From assembly GCA_016870775.1 (NCBI GenBank), contig VGAK01000014.1, positions 1 to 46,600 on the forward strand: a stretch of DNA of 46,600 nt, written 5' to 3'. This document shows positions 37,591 to 46,600 of this stretch, piece by piece. The translations under genes and the position numbers were made by a program. Position 1 is the stretch's first letter; each line of letters starts with the position of its first letter. Source of the DNA: Actinomycetota bacterium (GTDB taxonomy: Bacteria > Actinomycetota > Acidimicrobiia > Acidimicrobiales > Ilumatobacteraceae). The notes under the pieces were generated by a model. It ran no database searches, had not been told where the DNA came from, and worked only from the letters and a program-made list of their open reading frames with translations.

Positions 37591-38244
37591 ATGCGAAAGG
37601 TCCTCCTCGTCCTCGTGACGGTTCTGTTCGCCGCGGGCACCATCGGGACGAACATCGGTCCCGCGCTCGTGGATGACCGGCCCCTGTTGGTGCTGCTCCT
37701 CTCGTCGAGGAACAGAAATCTGCTGGGTGCGAGCCCCTACGTGGACACCCACACGTTCTTCCTGGTCGGTTTCTCCCGTCTCCTGGTCGCCGCCATCGCG
37801 TTGTACTTCGTGGGTCGCTGGTTCGGTGAGCGGGCCCTGCGATGGACCGAGTCCCAGGTCGGCGAGATGCCCAAGATCTACCGCTGGACCGAGCGGATCG
37901 CCGCGCGCGCGGGCTGGCTGGCGGTGCTGCTCATGCCGGGATCGAACATCGTGTGCCTCCTCGTGGGCCACATGAAGATGTCCCCGCGCCGGTTCGTGAC
38001 CCTGGCCTGCACCGGGATCTCGCTCCGCCTCGTTGTGCTGTGGAACGCGGGCAAGGCCGTCGAGGACGAGATCGAATCGGTGGTTGGCTGGATCAACCGG
38101 TACCAGTGGTGGATCGTGGGCGCCTTGTTCGCCGTGACACTGCTCCAGTCGGCGCGGCGGCGGACCCCCGGGCCGCCCGATCCCGGCTCACCGGACCCGA
38201 ACACGGCGGATCCCGGTGAGCCCGCGACGGAGCCCCAGCCCTAG
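37591..38244 (+). CDS. Integral membrane protein, VTT/DedA-like
   Basis: 217 residues with about four or five membrane helices. After a first helix (residues 4-22), a SSRNRNLLGAS loop precedes a second helix with GRWFGERALRW, reminiscent of the DedA GRWLG pattern. AVLLMPGSNIVCLLVGHMKMSPRRFV matches the region where DedA proteins carry their R-x-P-G segment. LRLVVLWNAGKAVEDEI and a last helix follow, then a Pro/Asp-rich cytoplasmic tail (about 190-217). Similarity to VTT proteins is by eye and moderate. Its stop codon TAG forms the -10 box of tpx. Confidence 0.75.
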   Translation: MRKVLLVLVTVLFAAGTIGTNIGPALVDDRPLLVLLLSSRNRNLLGASPYVDTHTFFLVGFSRLLVAAIALYFVGRWFGERALRWTESQVGEMPKIYRWTERIAARAGWLAVLLMPGSNIVCLLVGHMKMSPRRFVTLACTGISLRLVVLWNAGKAVEDEIESVVGWINRYQWWIVGALFAVTLLQSARRRTPGPPDPGSPDPNTADPGEPATEPQP

Positions 38245-38247
38245 GCT
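38242..38247 (+). promoter_or_regulatory. -10 box TAGGCT of tpx, overlapping the upstream stop codon
   Basis: TAGGCT ends 7 bases before ATG 38255; its TAG is the stop of the VTT-like gene. Confidence 0.55.
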
Positions 38248-38254
38248 CGCGCCC

Positions 38255-38752
38255 ATGGCACAGACATCCTTCGGCGGCAACCCCGTCAACACCAACGGCG
38301 ACCTCCCCGCACCGGGCGCGTCGCTCCCCTCGTTCTCGCTCACCGGCGGCAACTTGCAGGACTTCGGCAATGCGGACATCACGGGCAAGCGCGTCATCTT
38401 CAACATCTTCCCCTCCGTCGACACTCCGGTGTGCGCCACCAGCGTGCGCAAGTTCAACGAACTGGCCTCATCGCTCCAGAATGCCGTCGTCTACTGCGTG
38501 AGTGCCGACCTCCCGTTCGCCCAGGGACGCTTCTGCGGCGCGGAGGGGCTCGCGAACGTCCAGACCGCGTCGTCGTTCCGCGGGGGATTCGGCGAGGCGT
38601 TCGGCGTGCAGCTGAACGAGGGCGCCTTCAAGGGGCTGCTCGCGCGCGCCGTCGTGGTGGCCGACGAGACGGGCAGGGTGCTCCACACCGAACTCGTCGA
38701 CAACATCGGCTCCGAGCCGAACTACGACGCGGCGGTCGACGCCCTCAGGTGA
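38255..38752 (+). CDS. tpx: Thiol peroxidase (atypical 2-Cys peroxiredoxin)
   Basis: 165 residues, the normal Tpx length. The peroxidatic Cys is in PSVDTPVCATSVRKFN (about residue 60) and the resolving Cys in GRFCGAEG (about residue 94), the Tpx-specific spacing. The N-terminus FGGNPVNTNGDLPAPG and C-terminus LVDNIGSEPNYDAAVDAL also fit Tpx. It reduces peroxides in the cytosol using thioredoxin. A leaderless promoter starts within the stop of the preceding gene. Confidence 0.96.
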   Translation: MAQTSFGGNPVNTNGDLPAPGASLPSFSLTGGNLQDFGNADITGKRVIFNIFPSVDTPVCATSVRKFNELASSLQNAVVYCVSADLPFAQGRFCGAEGLANVQTASSFRGGFGEAFGVQLNEGAFKGLLARAVVVADETGRVLHTELVDNIGSEPNYDAAVDALR

Positions 38753-38756
38753 GCCT

Positions 38757-38775
38757 TCGCGCCGTGTCGGCGCGA
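38757..38775. terminator. Hairpin between convergent tpx and dapB
   Basis: TCGCGCC, loop GTGTC, GGCGCGA: a perfect 7-bp stem 4 bases after the tpx stop and 2 bases before the dapB stop, positioned to end both transcripts. Confidence 0.6.
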
Positions 38776-38777
38776 TC

Positions 38778-39536
38778 TCAGAGAAGTGAGTCGATCCCGA
38801 GCGTGAGCCCGGGGACAGTTGCGACACGGCGGCATGCGAGCAGCACGCCGGGCATGAACGACACCCTGTCGCTCGAATCGTGTCGGATCACGAGAGTCTG
38901 CCCGGCGGTGCCGAGCACCACCTCCTGCGAGGCGGTCATTCCCACCATGCGCACACCATGGATGCGGATGCCCGCCGGCCCCTGGCCCCCGCGCGCACCG
39001 GGGAGAGTCTCGTGCGCGGTCGGATCCGGAGCCCACTCGCTGCTGGCTGATGCCATCCGGCGCGCGGTCGCCAGCGCCGTTCCACTCGGTGCGTCAGCCT
39101 TGCCGTTGTGGTGGAACTCGATGATCTCGGCGGTCTCGAACCAGGGGGCGGCCTGCTCCGCGAAGCGCATCATCAGCACCGCACCGATCGCGAAGTTCGC
39201 AGCGATCAGGCAGTTCGACCCGGAGAAAGCCTTGCGGAACGACTCGACGTCGTCGTCACCCAGACCGGTGGTGCCCACGACCGCGTGCATGCCGTGCAGA
39301 GCGAGCCACGGGAGGGTGATGCGCGCGGCCGCCGCCACGGTGAAGTCGACGACGACCTCGCATCCGGCATCGGCGAGCGTCCTCAACTCCGACGAGACCG
39401 TGAGCCCGTGGACTTGCCCCCCGGTTCGGGCGGTGTCGACCGCGGCGACGAGATCGAGGCCCTCGGCAGCGGCGACCGCGTCACAGACCGTTGAACCCAT
39501 GCGTCCGGCGGCCCCCACGACACCCACGCGAATCAT
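38778..39536 (-). CDS. dapB: 4-hydroxy-tetrahydrodipicolinate reductase
   Basis: 252 residues from ATG 39536, giving the family start IRVGVVGAAGRMG (nucleotide-binding motif). The upstream GTG at 39545 is rejected because the -10 box TACGGT lies between. Other signatures: VDFT, VVGTTG, and EIIEFHHNGKADAPSGTALATA (active-site His and Lys). It reduces the DapA product with NAD(P)H in the diaminopimelate/lysine pathway. The gene follows pnp, as in many actinobacteria, but has its own leaderless promoter. Confidence 0.96.
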   Translation of the reverse strand: MIRVGVVGAAGRMGSTVCDAVAAAEGLDLVAAVDTARTGGQVHGLTVSSELRTLADAGCEVVVDFTVAAAARITLPWLALHGMHAVVGTTGLGDDDVESFRKAFSGSNCLIAANFAIGAVLMMRFAEQAAPWFETAEIIEFHHNGKADAPSGTALATARRMASASSEWAPDPTAHETLPGARGGQGPAGIRIHGVRMVGMTASQEVVLGTAGQTLVIRHDSSDRVSFMPGVLLACRRVATVPGLTLGIDSLL

Positions 39537-39543
39537 GGGCGCC

Positions 39544-39549
39544 ACCGTA
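39544..39549 (-). promoter_or_regulatory. -10 box TACGGT of dapB (leaderless)
   Basis: TACGGT on the minus strand ends 7 bases before ATG 39536. Confidence 0.55.
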
Positions 39550-39611
39550 GCCGCCGGTCGACGGAGGATTCCCTGGTTATGCGCGGGCTGTGATCAGTGC
39601 CGGGGGCCGCA

Positions 39612-39655
39612 CGGGCGGCGATCAGCGCTGACAGCGGAGCGGGCGTCGATCAGCG
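39612..39655. repeat. Imperfect 16-base direct repeat at the pnp 3' end
   Basis: CGGGCGGCGATCAGCG (39612-39627) and CGGGCGTCGATCAGCG (39640-39655) differ at one base. The second copy contains the pnp stop codon. It may be a small duplication of the gene end. Confidence 0.5.
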
Positions 39656-42154
39656 ACGGTTGCCGCGCGGGCCCAGATCGCCGAAGTCACGCGACAACTC
39701 GCTGTCGAACTCTGCCTCGAAGGACACCTCGACGGGCGCATCAGCCGACGACTCCGACCGCGGCTCGCGACGCTCGCTGCGATCGCGGTCACCGCGTCCG
39801 CCGCGATCCCGGTCACGGTCGCGACCTCCGCGGTCACGGTCACGGCCACCGCGGTCACGACCGCCACGGTCGCGGTCACGGCCGCCACGATCGCCGCGTC
39901 CACCGCGGTCGTCGTCACGGTCGCGACGCTCACGGCGCTCGCCACCGCCGCCGCCGCCGGGGAGGGGCTCCCCGTCGGGTCCGACCGGTGTGAGGCTGAC
40001 CTTGCCCTTGTCGTCGATGTCGTCGACGCGGACCTTGATCACCTGACCGAGCTCGAGCACGTCCTCGACGTTGTTCACGCGCTGACCGTTGCCGAGCTTG
40101 GAGATGTGCACGAGTCCGTCACGACCCGGGAGGATGTTCACGAACGCACCGAACTTGGTCATGCTGACCACGCGGCCGTCATAGATCGCACCCAGGTCCG
40201 CCGTCGGCGGATCGACGATCGCCAGGATCCGGGCCCTTGCCTCCTCCACGCGGAAGTTGTCGGGCGAGCCGATGGTGACGATGCCGACGGCTCCGTCGTC
40301 GTCGACGGCGATGTCCGCACCGGTCTCCTGCTGGATCGTGTTGATGACCTTGCCCTTCGGTCCGATCACCTCTCCGACCTTGTCGAGCGGGATGTTGAAC
40401 GACACGATCTTCGGAGCGGTCTCTGCGACCTCCGAACGCGGTCCCGCGAGGGCGGTGGCCATGTTGTCCAGGATCGCCATGCGCGCATCGCGCGCCTGCT
40501 GGAGCGCTGCCGCGAGCACGTCGGCCGGGATGCCGTCGATCTTGGTGTCGAGTTGCAGGGCGGTCACCGCGTCGCGGGTTCCGGCCACCTTGAAGTCCAT
40601 GTCCCCGAAGGCGTCCTCGGCACCGAGGATGTCGGTGAGGGTGAGGTAGGTGCCCTCGGCATAGATCAGGCCCATCGCGATACCCGCGACGGGGGCCTTG
40701 ATCGGCACACCGGCATCCATGAGCGAGAGGCTCGAGGAGCACACCGAGGCCATCGAGGTCGACCCGTTCGACGACAGCACCTCGCTCACGAGGCGGATCG
40801 CGTAGGCGAACTCCTCCTGGCTGGGCACCACCGGCAACAAGGCGCGCTCGGCGAGCGCACCGTGGCCGATCTCGCGGCGCTTCGGCGAACCGACGCGACC
40901 GGTCTCGCCGTTGGCCCACGGAGCCATGTTGTAGTGGTGGATGTAGCGCTTCTCGGCGTCCGGCCCGAGCGTGTCGAGCATCTGGTTCATGCGCGGCATC
41001 GCGAGCGTGCACACGTTCATGACCTGGGTTTCTCCGCGCTGGAACAGGCCCGTGCCGTGCGCGGTCGGCAGGACGCCGACATCGGACGACAGGGGACGAA
41101 GGTCCCTTGGTCCGCGGCCGTCGATGCGGACACCCGCCTCTACGACGCGCTTGCGCACGAGCTTCTTGGTGAGGCTGCGTACCGCTTCCTTCACGGCCTT
41201 GTCCTGGCCGGCGAAGCGACCACCCTCCCCGCAGAGCTCCGAGACCGTCTCTGCGGCGGCTGCGTCGGTGGCAGCGTTGCGCTCGGCCTTCAGCGCGATC
41301 GTGACCGCGTGGGCAAGTTTCGCGGTGGCGACCCGCTCCACCTCGACGAAGATCTCATCGGTGTAGTCGAGGACGGGGGTGTAGGACAGCGGCGCGATCG
41401 GACCTCGGGTGGCGATCACACTCGCAACCAACTGGCGCTGCAGTGCGATCGACTCCTTGATCCAGGTCTTGGAGGCCTCGAGCCCGTCGGCGATGACGGC
41501 CTCGGACACCTTCGGTGCACCGGACTCGTAGAACTCGAACGCCTTCTCGGTGCCGCCGGCTTCCACCATCATGATGGCGACGTCACCGTTGTCGAGTTCG
41601 CGGCCGGCCACAACGATCTCGAACGTGCCCTGCTCGCCCTGCGTGTAGGTGGGATGGGGCACCCAGGTTCCATCCTGGTCGTAGGCCAGGCGGACCGCCC
41701 CGATGGGTCCCTCGAACGGGATGCCCGAGATCATGAGCGCCGCCGACGAGGCGTTGATCGCGATCACATCGTGCGGGTTGGCCATGTCGACACCCACGAC
41801 GGTGATGACGACCTGGGTCTCGTTGCGGTACCCGTCGGGGAAGGCGGGACGCAGCGGCCGGTCGATCAGGCGACAGGTGAGGATGGCCTGCTCGCTCGGG
41901 CGACCCTCGCGTCTGAAGAAGGCTCCGGGGATCTTGCCGGCGGCATAGGCGCGCTCCTCGACGTCGACCGTCAGCGGGAAGAAGTCGATGCCGTCCCGAA
42001 CTCCGCGGGCGGCATTGGCGGTTGCCAGCACCGTGGTTCCGCCGATTGTGGCGAGCACCGCACCCTGGGATTGGGTGGCGAGCTTGCCGGTCTGGAATGA
42101 AATGGTCTTGTCCGTGCCGGACACCGGCGCGGACACTCGAATGGCGTCAGCCAT
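39650..42154 (-). CDS. pnp: Polyribonucleotide nucleotidyltransferase (PNPase) with long RGD/RDRGG-type tail
   Basis: 834 residues from ATG 42154, preceded by AAGGAG. Two RNase PH-like domains are present (TGKLATQSQGAV at the start; GTGLFQRGETQVMNV in the second), then a KH domain (VGEVIGPKGKVINTI, about residue 590) and an S1 domain (GRVVSMTKFGAFVNI to DKGKVSLTPVG, about 653-723). The last ~110 residues form a low-complexity tail of repeated Arg, Asp and Gly. PNPases are usually 700-740 residues; the tail accounts for the excess. PNPase degrades RNA phosphorolytically. It follows rpsO with a 136-base spacer, the classic rpsO-pnp pair. Confidence 0.97.
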   Translation of the reverse strand: MADAIRVSAPVSGTDKTISFQTGKLATQSQGAVLATIGGTTVLATANAARGVRDGIDFFPLTVDVEERAYAAGKIPGAFFRREGRPSEQAILTCRLIDRPLRPAFPDGYRNETQVVITVVGVDMANPHDVIAINASSAALMISGIPFEGPIGAVRLAYDQDGTWVPHPTYTQGEQGTFEIVVAGRELDNGDVAIMMVEAGGTEKAFEFYESGAPKVSEAVIADGLEASKTWIKESIALQRQLVASVIATRGPIAPLSYTPVLDYTDEIFVEVERVATAKLAHAVTIALKAERNAATDAAAAETVSELCGEGGRFAGQDKAVKEAVRSLTKKLVRKRVVEAGVRIDGRGPRDLRPLSSDVGVLPTAHGTGLFQRGETQVMNVCTLAMPRMNQMLDTLGPDAEKRYIHHYNMAPWANGETGRVGSPKRREIGHGALAERALLPVVPSQEEFAYAIRLVSEVLSSNGSTSMASVCSSSLSLMDAGVPIKAPVAGIAMGLIYAEGTYLTLTDILGAEDAFGDMDFKVAGTRDAVTALQLDTKIDGIPADVLAAALQQARDARMAILDNMATALAGPRSEVAETAPKIVSFNIPLDKVGEVIGPKGKVINTIQQETGADIAVDDDGAVGIVTIGSPDNFRVEEARARILAIVDPPTADLGAIYDGRVVSMTKFGAFVNILPGRDGLVHISKLGNGQRVNNVEDVLELGQVIKVRVDDIDDKGKVSLTPVGPDGEPLPGGGGGGERRERRDRDDDRGGRGDRGGRDRDRGGRDRGGRDRDRGGRDRDRDRGGRGDRDRSERREPRSESSADAPVEVSFEAEFDSELSRDFGDLGPRGNRR

Positions 42155-42256
42155 GGGAACTCCTTGGATGAGTGTGATGTGTTGTTCCGTCGACACCACG
42201 CCGGTTCCCAGTCGGCAACCCCGCCCCATGGCGCGGGATCCTCGACTGACAACCGA

Positions 42257-42277
42257 CGACTCTGTGTAGGGGAGTCG
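42257..42277 (-). other. Hairpin in the rpsO-pnp spacer
   Basis: CGACTC, 9 bases, GAGTCG lies 13 bases after the rpsO stop. A second weaker GC stem, CCCGC/GCGGG, is at 42220-42237. Together they suggest a processing or attenuation site between rpsO and pnp, as known for RNase III in Escherichia coli; this is inferred from position only. Confidence 0.4.
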
Positions 42278-42290
42278 GCGGAGCCTGGCC

Positions 42291-42545
42291 TCAGCGGCGT
42301 AGACCGAGTTGTGCGACGAGCTCGCGGTAGCGGGCGATGTCGCGGGCGCGGACGTAATCCAGCATGCGGCGACGACGGCCAACCAGCATCAGCAGACCAC
42401 GACGGCTGTGGTGGTCCTTCGGGTGCTCCTTGAGGTGCTCCGTGAGGTGGTTGATGCGGTCCGTGAGAAGTGCGATCTGCACGTCGGGCGAACCTGTGTC
42501 GGTGCCGTGCTGCTTGTACGCAGCGATTGTCTCGTTTTTCGTCAT
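42291..42545 (-). CDS. rpsO: 30S ribosomal protein uS15 (S15)
   Basis: 84 residues from ATG 42545; the open frame extends upstream but the S15 N-terminus [20 protein letters not shown] begins here. [21 protein letters not shown] and [22 protein letters not shown] are the conserved S15 helices. It binds 16S rRNA early in 30S assembly. The protein is a few residues shorter than the common 89. First gene of the rpsO-pnp unit, with a long leader of about 85 bases after a TTGTGG/TAGCCT promoter, in contrast to the many leaderless genes nearby. Confidence 0.97.
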
Positions 42546-42638
42546 CTGAGACGGCCTCGTCCTTGCTTCAGAGGGCGCCGGTCGCGGCCTGTCCGCTGCC
42601 GGCATCTCACGCGCGCCGGAGCCCACGTGGACCCCTTC

Positions 42639-42667
42639 AGGCTACGACACACTCCGGTTGTCCACAA
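42639..42667 (-). promoter_or_regulatory. Promoter of rpsO-pnp
   Basis: On the minus strand, TTGTGG (42667-42662), 17 bases, TAGCCT (42644-42639). It is divergent from the ribE promoter. Confidence 0.55.
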
Positions 42668-42696
42668 CCCCCCGTTCACTTGGGGTCTTCGGCAGT

Positions 42697-42702
42697 TAGT
42701 GT
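42697..42702 (+). promoter_or_regulatory. -10 box TAGTGT of ribE (leaderless)
   Basis: TAGTGT ends 8 bases before GTG 42711. Confidence 0.5.
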
Positions 42703-42710
42703 TCGCGTTC

Positions 42711-43277
42711 GTGTTCACCGGCATCGTCGAGGAGAGGGGCTCGGTCCGGTCCCGCGACGGGTCCCGCCTCGTGATCTCGGCCCGGACGGTGCTCGAGGAC
42801 TCCGGAATCGGAGCGTCGATCGCGGTGAACGGCTGCTGCCTCACGGTGGTCGAGCGCGGCGATGACTGGTGGAGCGCGGACGTCTCCGACGAGACCTGGT
42901 CGCGCACGAACCTGGGGGATCTCGCCGCAGGCGACCCCGTCAACCTCGAGAGGCCGATGGCCGCCGGTGGACGCTTCGGCGGCCACGTGGTGCTCGGACA
43001 CGTCGACGCGGTCGGCACGGTCGTGGCACCGGCACCGGGTCTTGTCGTGCGGATCCCGCGCGAGCTGATGCGCTACGTGGTCGAGAAGGGGTCGTGCACG
43101 GTCGATGGCATCAGCCTCACCGTGTTCAACCTCGGCGCGGACACCTTCGAGGTGGCGGTGATCCCCCACACCGCCGATGTGACCACCCTCGGGGTCAGGC
43201 ACGCGGGAGACAGGGTCAACATCGAGATCGACGTGCTCGCCAAGCACGTCGAGAGACTGCTGAACGAGCGTGACTGA
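42711..43277 (+). CDS. ribE: Riboflavin synthase (alpha chain)
   Basis: 188 residues from GTG 42711, giving the invariant N-terminus FTGIVEERG. Two lumazine-binding repeats are visible: SIAVNGCCLTVV with SDETWSRTNLGDL and NLERPMAAGGRFGGHVVLGHVD in the first, and KGSCTVDGISLTVFNLG with AVIPHTADVTTLG and VNIEIDVLAKHVERLL in the second. It dismutates two 6,7-dimethyl-8-ribityllumazine to riboflavin plus 5-amino-6-ribitylaminouracil. The latter is also a substrate of the FO synthase encoded two genes on. A little shorter than usual (~200-215). The stop lies 5 bases past the next start (8-base overlap), so the pair is coupled. Confidence 0.96.
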   Translation: MFTGIVEERGSVRSRDGSRLVISARTVLEDSGIGASIAVNGCCLTVVERGDDWWSADVSDETWSRTNLGDLAAGDPVNLERPMAAGGRFGGHVVLGHVDAVGTVVAPAPGLVVRIPRELMRYVVEKGSCTVDGISLTVFNLGADTFEVAVIPHTADVTTLGVRHAGDRVNIEIDVLAKHVERLLNERD

Positions 43278-44049
43278 GTTGTCCGATCTTCGCGGCAGGA
43301 TCGATGCGATCGATCGTGCGATCGTGAACCTGCTCGCCGATCGCATGCAGGTCTGCCGCGAGGTCGCCGAGATCAAGGAGAAGTCGGGCACCACCGTCAT
43401 CCAGCCCCAGCGTGTCCGCGACGTGCTGGCGAGCCGCCGCCAATGGGCGATCAACGCCCGCGTGGAACCGGACTTCGCAGAACAGTTGTTCCGCACCCTG
43501 CTCGCGGAGACCCACCGCATCGAGGTCGCGGGCTCGCTCGATGTGCCCGCCCCCGACAAGTCGGCCGGTGATGGCGCACGCAGTGAGCTCGACACGGTCG
43601 CCTGCCGCATCGACCACGTCGTGGTGGCCGTCGCCGACCTCGACGCCGCGAGCGGATTCTTCGCCGGCATGGGATTCGTGGTCGCCACCACCGACGACCC
43701 GAGCATGCGGGTCGCCTCCGCTGGCGGGGTCACGGTCGTGTTGGTGTCGGGCGATCACAACCCGGCCGTGCACCGCCGACTCGCCGAGCACGGCTCGGGG
43801 GTCCAGCACATCGCGATCGAGGTGCTCAACGCCACCTTCACGCGCGATGCGCTCGATGCCGCGGGGGTGCCGCGCCTCACCGATGTGGTCGTCGACGGGG
43901 CCGGCCACGAGCAGGTCTTCACCGTCGCGGATCCGGTCACCGGGGTGCAGTTGAGCTTCATCAGCCGCACGGGTCACCGGGTCGCGATGGGGAGCCACAA
44001 CGTGCGCGCCATGTTCGAGGCGATCGATCGCGCGACCGGCGGGGGTTGA
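43270..44049 (+). CDS. Fusion: AroQ-type chorismate mutase/PchB-like domain + HPPD-like VOC domain
   Basis: 259 residues, GTG start at 43270 overlapping ribE by 8 bases. Residues 5-88 form an AroQ-type helical domain: LRGRIDAIDRAIVNLLADRM with R10 and R25, K36 in EIKEKSG, and QPQRVRDVLASRRQWA with R48. The Glu that follows this Arg in E. coli chorismate mutase is Val 49, as in the isochorismate-pyruvate lyase PchB, and the RRQWA helix is also PchB-like; the Gln used late in both is Thr 81. After a linker (90-110), residues 112-250 form a VOC domain most like the C-terminal half of 4-hydroxyphenylpyruvate dioxygenase: H116 in RIDHVVVAV, H180 in GVQHIAIEV, and the end VRAMFEAID. The third ligand Glu (FFEIIQR in HPPD) is Ser 229. 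Catalysis of the VOC half is doubtful; ligand sensing is possible. The fusion is clear, the reactions are not. Confidence 0.85.
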   Translation: MTELSDLRGRIDAIDRAIVNLLADRMQVCREVAEIKEKSGTTVIQPQRVRDVLASRRQWAINARVEPDFAEQLFRTLLAETHRIEVAGSLDVPAPDKSAGDGARSELDTVACRIDHVVVAVADLDAASGFFAGMGFVVATTDDPSMRVASAGGVTVVLVSGDHNPAVHRRLAEHGSGVQHIAIEVLNATFTRDALDAAGVPRLTDVVVDGAGHEQVFTVADPVTGVQLSFISRTGHRVAMGSHNVRAMFEAIDRATGGG

Positions 44050-44052
44050 TCG

Positions 44053-44092
44053 CCCCGGCACCGGACCCGTCGAGTGTTCCCCGCCGCCGGGG
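44053..44092 (+). terminator. Long-loop hairpin after the AroQ-VOC gene
   Basis: CCCCGGC (44053-44059) and GCCGGGG (44086-44092) can pair across a 26-base loop, 4 bases after the stop. It may separate the ribE unit from fbiC. No U-tract. Confidence 0.35.
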
Positions 44093-44130
44093 TCATCGCC
44101 CCGATGGTGCCCCCGAGGTCCGCACCCCAG

Positions 44131-44136
44131 TAGAGT
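44131..44136 (+). promoter_or_regulatory. -10 box candidate TAGAGT for fbiC
   Basis: TAGAGT lies within CCCC...GGGG arms, giving a leader of about 100 bases before ATG 44246. Start site AGGTAGGT near 44231 acts as ribosome site. The rest of the 196-base gap shows no further clear element. Confidence 0.35.
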
Positions 44137-44245
44137 GGGGTTGCTCGATCGTTCAAGATTTCGGTGGCTCCTATAGCTCTCGCCGGCGGGGTCTGATCGG
44201 CACTGGCACAACACACAGGCTCGATCCACCAGGTAGGTGCACGCC

Positions 44246-46600
44246 ATGACTCGCCAGTTCGCGAGAGCTGATCTCGTTCCCGACCAAGTGCTCGCCATGC
44301 TCGTCGGCGAGTTCGAGACCGCCCGGCTCGACGATCTCCTGCCGCGTGCGCGCGCGGTGCGCGACGCCGCCCGAGGGACCCGGATCACCTACTCGCCGAA
44401 GGTCTTCATCCCGCTCACGATGCTCTGCCGCGACAAGTGCGGCTACTGCACCTTCGCCCAGCCACCCGCGCGACTGGACAAGCCCTACCTCGAGCCCGAC
44501 GATGTGCTCGCCATCGCCAGGCTCGGTGCGCGCAACGGCTGTCACGAGGCCCTCTTCACCCTCGGTGAGCGCCCCGAGTTGCGCTACGGGGCGGCGGCCG
44601 ACTGGCTCGGCGCCCACGGCTACGACTCGACGGTGCACTACCTCCACGACATGTGCGCGCTGGTGCTTGACGAGACCGGCCTGCTCCCGCATGCCAACGC
44701 CGGCGCGCTCCATGCCGACGAGCTCGCGATGCTGCGCCGGGTCGCGCCCTCACAGGGGATGATGCTCGAGTCACTGCGCGGCGATCTCTCGTGCCACCGC
44801 GGCGCACCCGACAAGGATCCGCAGCGGCGCATCGACACCCTCTGTGCCGCCGGCGAACTCGCAATCCCGTTCACGAGCGGAATCCTCGTCGGGATCGGCG
44901 AGGACCGCCGCGACCGCATCGAGGCCCTCGCCGTGCTCGCAGCCGCGCACCGGCGCTGGGGCCACCTGCAGGAAGTCATCGTGCAGAACTTCCTCCCCAA
45001 GCCCGGCACGATCATGTTCCGCTCGCTCCCCTGCCCCGAGGACGAGTACCTCTGGTCGATCGCGGTAGCCCGGCTGATCCTTCCCCCCTCCATCCACCTC
45101 CAGGCGCCGCCGAATCTCTCGGACGACTTCGGCGTGCTGCTCGATGCGGGTATCGACGACTGGGGCGGGGTCTCCCCGGTCACGGCCGACCACGTGAATC
45201 CCGAGCGACCGTGGCCCGCGCTCGACCGCCTGCGAAGCGTCACCGAGGAACGCGGGTTCGCGCTCGCACCGCGTCTCACCATCTACCCCGAGCATGCGAA
45301 CGCGCCCGAGACATGGCTCGACGGGGCGCTCAGATTCCCGGTGCTCGATCGAAGCGACGCCGAAGGACTCGGCCGCGACGACCCCGGTGCAGTGTGGCCC
45401 GAGAAGGTGACCCCGGCCGACGTCGTCCACGACGGCGCCGAGGTCGTTCTCGTGGGCCACAAGTCGACGCAGTGGTACTCGGGCTCGAACCTCGCACCAC
45501 CGATCCTGGTGCCGCACCCGGCACCGGCCGTGCGCGGACGCATCGCCGAGATCCTCGAGGGACACCGTGCCGGACACGAGATCGGCGAGTCCGAGATCGT
45601 GGCGTTGTTCACCGCGCGCGGCCCGGAAGTCGGCGCGATCGCCGAACACGCCGACGAACTGCGGCGATTGGCCGTCGGCGACACGGTCACATGGGTGCAC
45701 AACCGCAACATCAACTACACGAACGTGTGCACCTACAAGTGCCGCTTCTGTGCGTTCTCGAAGGGTCCCCTCTCGCTCAACCTGCGGGGCACCCCGTACC
45801 TGCTCACCCTCGACGACATCGCCGAGCGCGCACTGGAGGCATGGGAGCTGGGCGCGACCGAGGTGACTCTCCAGGGTGGCATCCACCCCGACTTCGACGG
45901 CGATTACTACATCGAGGTGACACGCGCGGTGAAGAACGCCGTTCCCGACATGCACGTCCACGGCTTCACCGCCCTCGAGGTGACCGAGGGTGCGCGCCGC
46001 AACGGCGAGTCGCTGCGCGACTACCTCGTGCGCCTGAAGGCTGCCGGTCTCGCCTCGCTTCCCGGCACGGCCGCCGAGATCCTCGACGACGGGGTCCGCG
46101 CGATCCTGTGTCCCGACAAGGTGAACACCGAGGAGTGGCTGGAGTGCCACCGTCAGGCGCATGCGGTGGGACTGCACTCGAACATCACGATCATGTACGG
46201 CAGCATCGAGCATCCCATCTCGTGGGCGCGCCACATGGTGGCCACCCGTGACCTCCAGCGCGAGACGGGTGGCTTCACCGAGTTCATTCCGCTGCCGTTC
46301 GTCCACATGGCCTCGCCGATCTACCTCCAGCGCAGGTCGCGGCGCGGACCGACCTTCCGCGAGACGGTGCTGATGCATGCGATCGGGCGCATCGTGTACG
46401 ACGGATTGATCGACAACGTGCAGGTCTCGTGGGTCAAGATCGGCACTGCCGGTGCAACCCAGTTGCTGCGTGCCGGGTGCAACGACCTGGGCGGCACGTT
46501 GATGGACGAGAACATCTCGCGCGCAGCCGGGGCGAACCACGGTCAGGGCATGACCGAGGGACGCTTCGCCGAGATCGTGGCGCCCGTCGGGCGCCGCCTC
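44246..46600 (+). CDS. fbiC: FO synthase, fused CofG-CofH (7,8-didemethyl-8-hydroxy-5-deazaflavin synthase), 3' partial
   Basis: 785 codons are visible from ATG 44246 and the frame is still open at the window end; mycobacterial FbiC has about 856 residues, so some 70 are missing. The CofG half (about 1-370) has the radical SAM cluster CRDKCGYC in PLTMLCRDKCGYCTFAQ (about residue 65) and GILVGIGEDRRDRIE. The CofH half starts near residue 470 with NINYTNVCTYKCRFCAFSKG, its own CxxxCxxC cluster, then EVTLQGGIHPDFDG and NITIMYGSIEHP. The enzyme joins tyrosine and 5-amino-6-ribitylaminouracil to give FO, the chromophore of coenzyme F420. Lying beside ribE and an AroQ gene places both substrate branches together. 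Confidence 0.97.
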   Translation, partial: MTRQFARADLVPDQVLAMLVGEFETARLDDLLPRARAVRDAARGTRITYSPKVFIPLTMLCRDKCGYCTFAQPPARLDKPYLEPDDVLAIARLGARNGCHEALFTLGERPELRYGAAADWLGAHGYDSTVHYLHDMCALVLDETGLLPHANAGALHADELAMLRRVAPSQGMMLESLRGDLSCHRGAPDKDPQRRIDTLCAAGELAIPFTSGILVGIGEDRRDRIEALAVLAAAHRRWGHLQEVIVQNFLPKPGTIMFRSLPCPEDEYLWSIAVARLILPPSIHLQAPPNLSDDFGVLLDAGIDDWGGVSPVTADHVNPERPWPALDRLRSVTEERGFALAPRLTIYPEHANAPETWLDGALRFPVLDRSDAEGLGRDDPGAVWPEKVTPADVVHDGAEVVLVGHKSTQWYSGSNLAPPILVPHPAPAVRGRIAEILEGHRAGHEIGESEIVALFTARGPEVGAIAEHADELRRLAVGDTVTWVHNRNINYTNVCTYKCRFCAFSKGPLSLNLRGTPYLLTLDDIAERALEAWELGATEVTLQGGIHPDFDGDYYIEVTRAVKNAVPDMHVHGFTALEVTEGARRNGESLRDYLVRLKAAGLASLPGTAAEILDDGVRAILCPDKVNTEEWLECHRQAHAVGLHSNITIMYGSIEHPISWARHMVATRDLQRETGGFTEFIPLPFVHMASPIYLQRRSRRGPTFRETVLMHAIGRIVYDGLIDNVQVSWVKIGTAGATQLLRAGCNDLGGTLMDENISRAAGANHGQGMTEGRFAEIVAPVGRRL

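Follow-up and report, generated by a model that had tools for sequence, protein, structure and literature searches.

A lineage-specific ribE, AroQ::VOC and fbiC cassette between ribF and rpsO, with a candidate leader RNA ahead of fbiC

Why should the genes for riboflavin synthase (ribE), an AroQ-type chorismate mutase (CM) fused to a VOC domain (AroQ::VOC) and FO synthase (fbiC) stand side by side? In the present study, we addressed this question in a window of 46,600 bases, which is the whole contig VGAK01000014.1 of an Actinomycetota metagenome-assembled genome (MAG; 1.74 Mb, about 80% complete). The initial annotation had proposed a coordinated module keeping the supply of riboflavin, tyrosine and F420 in balance. 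Our results pointed to a lineage-specific cassette of two neighboring expression units between ribF and rpsO, with the translation of fbiC under its own leader, and we assign this reading a probability of about 0.6. The first unit, ribE-AroQ::VOC, would be read from a probably leaderless promoter and would supply riboflavin synthase and the only AroQ-type mutase, to which a VOC domain of HPPD/epimerase-like fold with an incomplete metal triad would be attached as a binding or stabilizing module. The second unit, fbiC, would have its own promoter and a transcript that opens with a bulged hairpin followed by a Shine-Dalgarno (SD) hairpin. FO synthase translation would probably be controlled through this leader, independently of the first unit.

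Gene identities and conserved order

The three genes, all on the plus strand, are:
42711..43277, plus strand: ribE, riboflavin synthase with two lumazine-binding domains (GTG start at 42711; NCBIfam and Pfam)
43270..44049, plus strand: AroQ::VOC, 259 aa (GTG start; CM_2 at residues 7-85, VOC at about 113-235)
44246..46600, plus strand: fbiC, FO synthase, a CofG-CofH fusion (ATG start; truncated at the contig end)

Profile matches confirmed these identities and their order, as initially annotated. RibE reached equivalog level with both NCBIfam riboflavin synthase models (PRK09289, 206.5 bits, cut-off 155; TIGR00187, 186 bits, cut-off 156.6), and ribE was the sole gene with PF00677 matches in its own, about 80% complete, genome. 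AroQ::VOC matched CM_2 at residues 7-85 (8.4e-22; 77.6 bits, cut-off 27) and Glyoxalase_4/Glyoxalase at about 113-228. FbiC carried the CofG and CofH equivalog domains in a single chain (443.8 and 489.4 bits, both above cut-off); its full-length model scored slightly below cut-off (1001.3 vs 1018) because the 3' end of fbiC is missing at the contig end.

The fusion was encoded in 54 public loci, and the adjacency was thus not unique to this genome: ribE preceded the fusion in 53, all but L051, which starts at a contig edge, and fbiC followed the fusion in 49. Of the five loci without fbiC, four (L037, L055, L067 and L075) are cut short by a contig end, and in L077 the fusion is followed by 2.2 kb of other sequence. 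Since it was kept across these loci, the three-gene order is not due to chance, and the shared strand and conserved order are those expected of an operon. The public relatives were MAGs that for the most part carry the labels Actinomycetota, Ilumatobacteraceae, Acidimicrobiaceae or acIV. In six long loci read open reading frame (ORF) by ORF, the cassette lay between convergent ribF-truB-rbfA and divergent rpsO-pnp-dapB; these neighbors were first named by eye and then confirmed by Pfam on the copies in L038. Fusion-level scores were obtained in 12 of 347 genomes of the order, 11 in the window's family and one (G040) in another. In a phylum sample, the fusion occurred in 6 of 396 genomes, all within the window's family (Ilumatobacteraceae-type), a restriction that weighs against a single three-gene module. 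Among 32 genomes checked, ribE and fbiC lay within a few kilobases of each other only in G271, G348 and G375.

The promoter of the first unit was inferred from one element:
42697..42702, plus strand: inferred ribE -10 element TAGTGT (consensus match, 8 bases before the GTG)

In 11 aligned loci read by eye, TAnnnT stood 6-8 bases ahead of the ribE start, which indicates a likely leaderless message. The reported 8-base overlap of ribE and AroQ::VOC was found at 43270-43277. It is peculiar to the window genome, with spacings from -8 to +23 across the loci. Since this spacing fits coupling, the two genes look translationally coupled; the suggested co-translation therefore holds as to spacing, and the exact overlap does not generalize.

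A probable fbiC promoter and its leader RNA

The gap between AroQ::VOC and fbiC measured 196 bases in the window and about 60-190 or 720-795 bases in the other loci, part of these lengths being extrapolated from the aligned region. The window gap contained:
44131..44136, plus strand: inferred fbiC -10 element TAGAGT (conserved T-A---T at a fixed place)
44143..44201, plus strand: leader hairpin with P1 (GC-U-CGAUC / GAUCG-GC), 5-nt bulge GUUCA, stem P2/P3 and 13-nt apical loop UCCUAUAGCUCUC
44227..44239, plus strand: second hairpin over the SD region (CACC AGGUA GGUG)

The T-A---T was invariant in 12/12 aligned gaps with variable flanks, and a -10 hexamer was found by rule in 41 of the 42 distinct gaps. 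The mere presence of a hexamer is uninformative in gaps this long, and the evidence is carried by its fixed position, 6 (26 rows) or 7 bases (14 rows) ahead of the opening GC of the leader in 40/40 measured rows. In 7 of the 54 loci (L061, L070, L072, L074, L075, L078 and L080), a PemK/MazF-type toxin gene (PF02452, scored in L070) and an 86-aa antitoxin-like ORF were placed identically between AroQ::VOC and the fbiC promoter. The leader lay beyond this pair in L070, L072, L074, L078 and L080, as found with model R1 (see below), and likewise by eye in L061; L075 ends too early to place it. Because fbiC has its own conserved -10 element, because a toxin-antitoxin pair may precede it and because AroQ::VOC occurs elsewhere without ribE or fbiC beside it (genus g33), fbiC is probably a separate expression unit with its own promoter.

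The same observations, together with the leader, led us to abandon the three-gene operon as the leading view. One co-transcribed unit balancing riboflavin, tyrosine and F420 supply would account for the conserved same-strand order bounded by divergent rpsO and convergent ribF, for the precursor shared by ribE and fbiC, and for AroQ::VOC being the sole CM_2 gene found, but it is improbable given this separation of fbiC. F420 requires very little tyrosine compared with protein synthesis, so that tyrosine balancing, as originally suggested, is a weak reason for the grouping. What stands of the coordinated module is the adjacency conserved within one family, the fitting coupling of ribE with AroQ::VOC, the place of AroQ::VOC on the route to tyrosine and the closeness of ribE and fbiC in only three of the 32 genomes checked. 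The idea of branch-point control might still hold if RNA rather than an operon were the control device.

The leader hairpins shared a topology in which P1 is followed by a bulge on the 5' side (4-7 nt, mostly 5) and by a long stem capped with a loop of 8-13 nt. It was observed in 40 of 41 distinct leaders folded singly, as against 27 of 8200 dinucleotide shuffles; this count used patterns that fix the segment ends, included five leaders of further relatives and left out L052 (no -10 by rule), L086 (cut) and identical rows. Most leaders had a YTCTWRC-like loop core, which reads CCTATAGC in the window (loop and bulge table of 36 distinct rows out of 44, L069 skipped). A model-free scan without fixed segment ends, which requires GC at the start and TCT in the loop, found the hairpin in 41/42 clustered fbiC gaps and in 1/18 regions upstream of unlinked fbiC genes. 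The sole unlinked match (L187) overlaps the -10 element of that gene.

Because automatic alignments mis-register the variable stem, we compared per-sequence folds and aligned rows of equal length. In six such rows, including the window, compensatory changes occurred in 13 of 20 pairs, which none of 500 shuffles equaled, and sliding abolished the signal. Model R2, built from these six rows, gave 15 matches at E <= 1 in 776,507 bases from 62 chosen sources, all at the leader position and nine outside the seed; in the alignment of the 15 matches, which is biased towards the model, 15/20 pairs covaried. These results indicated a conserved, covarying structured leader, as expected of a riboswitch. 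Model R1 was built from nine other, near rows, whose seed alone shows almost no covariation. It detected some leader groups that R2 misses, and its extra matches were minus-strand mirror matches and one match elsewhere (L144, E 0.046).

Over 32 genomes, R2 gave matches in 11. One match each lay beside AroQ::VOC in G000, G001, G003, G007, G011, G021, G026 and G031, and four further matches (E 0.06-0.37) fell in G035 (two), G040 and G061; no R2 match was obtained in G009 and G025, though both carry the cassette. Further good copies per genome were not found among the first 150 candidates that were scored in the 32 genomes, a weak negative because of this depth and because R2 misses several leader groups. 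In 20 stretches with fbiC outside the cassette, neither model found the leader (best E 1.4 for R2 and 2.2 for R1); 18 of them align to fbiC, and L182 and L183, which do not, were dropped from the counts of 18. Several of the unlinked fbiC genes had a -10 element directly ahead of the start. Because the models find no leader at unlinked fbiC, the leader appears to have arisen locally, at the clustered gene.

Several observations weigh against this picture of the leader. The window hairpin has only modest stability (z -1.33, against a mean z of -2.56 over 41), and the fold of the full-length window leader replaces P1 by another pairing, P1 forming in the segment alone. L069 folds otherwise, and the scan does not find the hairpin in L052. 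From the automatic alignment, RNAalifold recovered only 4 pairs, and stem lengths vary. The leader rows are related, so that the shuffle controls overstate significance and give no exact probabilities. Each of the two models, R1 and R2, leaves some leader groups within the family undetected, and the seeming absence at unlinked fbiC means that the leader is not general for FO synthase.

The second hairpin was a local structure that took in part of the SD region in 25/25 distinct leaders. Its native arms averaged -4.28 kcal/mol vs -3.39 kcal/mol for permuted arms, and 0/2000 permutations were as stable; a covarying hairpin of this kind near the start codon is what a riboswitch expression platform would show. 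We also considered a pseudoknot between the loop and the SD region, which was unsupported (native -4.75 vs permuted -4.58; 1269/5000 permutations and 163/2000 letter-shuffled loops were as good). No Rfam family reached the gathering score for the leader, the matches listed being at chance level, and the FMN riboswitch was absent among the Rfam matches in window 38000-46600 and in seven relatives' loci.

Translational control is the simplest reading of this anatomy, and the leader therefore probably sets FO synthase translation. It is possibly a riboswitch, with putative ligand binding. A more specific proposal is that it forms a new riboswitch class, evolved when fbiC moved beside ribE, which senses a branch-point metabolite (FO, F420, flavin, ribitylaminouracil or tyrosine) and adjusts the translation of FO synthase; we regard this as rather unlikely. 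The chances are almost even that the hairpin is a 5'-terminal mRNA stabilizer or a protein-binding site and not a ligand-sensing RNA. Such a role would suit a single hairpin, small for a riboswitch, that begins at the inferred transcript start and occurs once per genome, at fbiC, where the model matches well, whereas the conserved loop, the mostly 5-nt bulge and the covarying SD hairpin suggest more than stabilization. In either case, a defined FO synthase leader would allow reporter assays of how the flavin/deazaflavin split is controlled. Our searches of the open-access literature brought up no description of RNA control of F420 biosynthesis, and unpublished or subscription accounts may exist.

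The AroQ::VOC protein

Exactly one CM_2 gene was found in 26/26 genomes, fused in 19 and stand-alone in 7, and the one CM_2 gene found in the window's own genome was the AroQ::VOC fusion. The count covers CM_2 (AroQ-type) genes only, with no search for an AroH-type mutase. Since a single CM_2 gene, fused or stand-alone, was found per genome, the fusion is predicted to replace the ordinary chorismate mutase and, with a predicted mutase function, would be the cell's only AroQ-type one. The placement of AroQ on the route to tyrosine was likewise borne out, because it was the only CM_2-type mutase found in each fusion-bearing genome checked (own plus 19). A point against this reading is the completeness of the own genome, about 80%, which leaves room for a second mutase.

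The best NCBIfam model for the CM part was a CM-like subfamily (67.5 bits, below its cut-off of 73.35), and the CM part matched solved CM and PchB chains. R8, R25, K36, R48 and E85 were invariant in 52 rows, as expected of the conserved Arg/Lys active site; they presumably correspond to catalytic positions of the E. coli enzyme. The VOC part matched hydroxymandelate synthase, HPPD and methylmalonyl-CoA epimerase to a similar degree, consistent with the VOC fold and profile. In the alignment of 52 rows, H116, the first ligand-type His, was invariant and H180 nearly so. The VOC metal triad is presumably His/His(Gln)/Glu. The position of the third ligand, placed by eye from the strand motif, was occupied by Ser/Gly in the alignment (S229 in the window), so that the triad was incomplete.

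Because Ser/Gly stands at the usual Glu position, the VOC domain is most likely a binding or stabilizing (structural) module. In view of its HPPD-like kinship, the ligand would perhaps be an aromatic keto acid or amino acid further down the pathway. The whole-protein structure model was poor (mean predicted local distance difference test score, pLDDT, 59.5), a point against this reading. An active metalloenzyme that works on the product of the mutase would agree with the two conserved His residues and with HPPD acting on a tyrosine-pathway keto acid. It is nevertheless quite unlikely, given Ser/Gly at the Glu position and the two such domains of HPPD; moreover, most HPPD matches fell on its N-terminal half, presumably non-catalytic, and some sequence matches on the C-terminal half. 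As the only AroQ-type mutase found, with an unexplained domain, AroQ::VOC raises the question of how freshwater actinobacteria control their aromatic amino acids.

The ribF-rpsO slot and comparison with known systems

The slot that holds the cassette is bounded on one side by:
42291..42626, minus strand: rpsO, divergent neighbor, then pnp (the ribF-rpsO-pnp order is interrupted by the cassette)

In relatives, the slot content varied. In genus g33 (G134 and G253), it contained ABC ATPase, permease, AroQ::VOC and NMT1-type binding protein genes, with no ribE or fbiC there, and in G134 the genes around AroQ::VOC were packed within about 10 bases. ABC genes together with AroQ::VOC occurred in g33 and g37, and ABC genes without AroQ::VOC in two g31 genomes; G061 and G333 had the importer without AroQ::VOC. 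In two f43 genomes, ribE stood together with ABC ATPase and permease genes, and elsewhere the slot held ribE-AroQ::VOC-fbiC. In G348, rpsO had ribE and fbiC to one side and importer genes to the other, with permease, AroQ::VOC and binding protein genes on a further contig; this arrangement looks mosaic. In L125, PF09084, PF00528 and PF00005 scored above cut-off, as expected of an NMT1-type binding protein with a sulfonate/nitrate/taurine-class permease. ABC importer genes lay beside ribF in L125, L126, L128 and L141-L144, with an NMT1-type binding protein in five. A one-protein search for ribE and a family search for ribH found neither gene in G134, G253, G061 and G333, which are possible flavin auxotrophs.

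According to PMC4418817, RibXY riboflavin importers belong to this ABC transporter type, and the slot therefore appears to be a flavin-supply position at which AroQ::VOC and fbiC were later arrivals. In the PNPase tree, g33/g37, g31/g32/g35 and the genera with the cluster fell into a single family, with no clear order of gains. It is plausible, at somewhat less than even odds, that the slot merely gathers genes for flavin supply, whether ribE or an NMT1-type ABC importer, and that AroQ::VOC and fbiC arrived without functional linkage. The varied slot content between genera and the missing ribE and ribH in the four genomes, which fit flavin import, agree with such hitchhiking; the gene order, which then stayed fixed in more than one genus, indeed in several, and the restriction of the leader, as far as found, to clustered fbiC argue against it.

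Several side observations were made at the locus and its relatives. The rpsO-ribE intergenic region is strongly conserved. The rpsO 5' leader lies at 42527-42680 on the minus strand of the window and shows, towards rpsO, a TAGCCT -10 element and then GGGCTC...GATGCC-hairpin-GGCGCCCTC. It is possibly an S15 autoregulatory leader; the scan of window 38000-46600 gave no credible Rfam match for it. The PNPase ORF ends, at about 39650-39900 on the minus strand, in a long repetitive tail rich in Arg/Gly/Asp. In G271, a 301-aa extra ORF without a Pfam match lies between ribE and AroQ::VOC (L127:10671-11576, minus strand). This acIV-type locus also occurs in public MAG records (L037, L038, L049, L056, L060, L084 and others) whose titles, Bifidobacterium breve, Ferrithrix thermotolerans or Acidobacteria, look wrong.

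Compared with the RibXY-type importer (PMC4418817), the relatives' slot likewise has an NMT1-type binding protein and an SsuC-like permease where ribE and ribH were not found. It differs, as a putative flavin importer, in that no Rfam match, and thus no FMN riboswitch, was found at the seven relatives' loci scanned. The fbiC leader shares with Rfam leaders such as the FMN riboswitch a defined fold at the 5' end of a flavin-related message and a hairpin at the SD; it differs as a single bulged hairpin with no credible Rfam match. HPPD and hydroxymandelate synthase (2r5v, 1t47, 3isq) and methylmalonyl-CoA epimerase differ from AroQ::VOC, which has one VOC unit, fused to a mutase and lacking the third metal ligand. 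Our searches of the open-access literature brought up no account of a CM and VOC fusion, and unpublished or subscription accounts may exist. PheA (CM-PDT-ACT), TyrA (CM-PDH) and an exported CM-CDT (PMC10520331) likewise join an AroQ domain to a partner domain, whereas the partner domain here is VOC.

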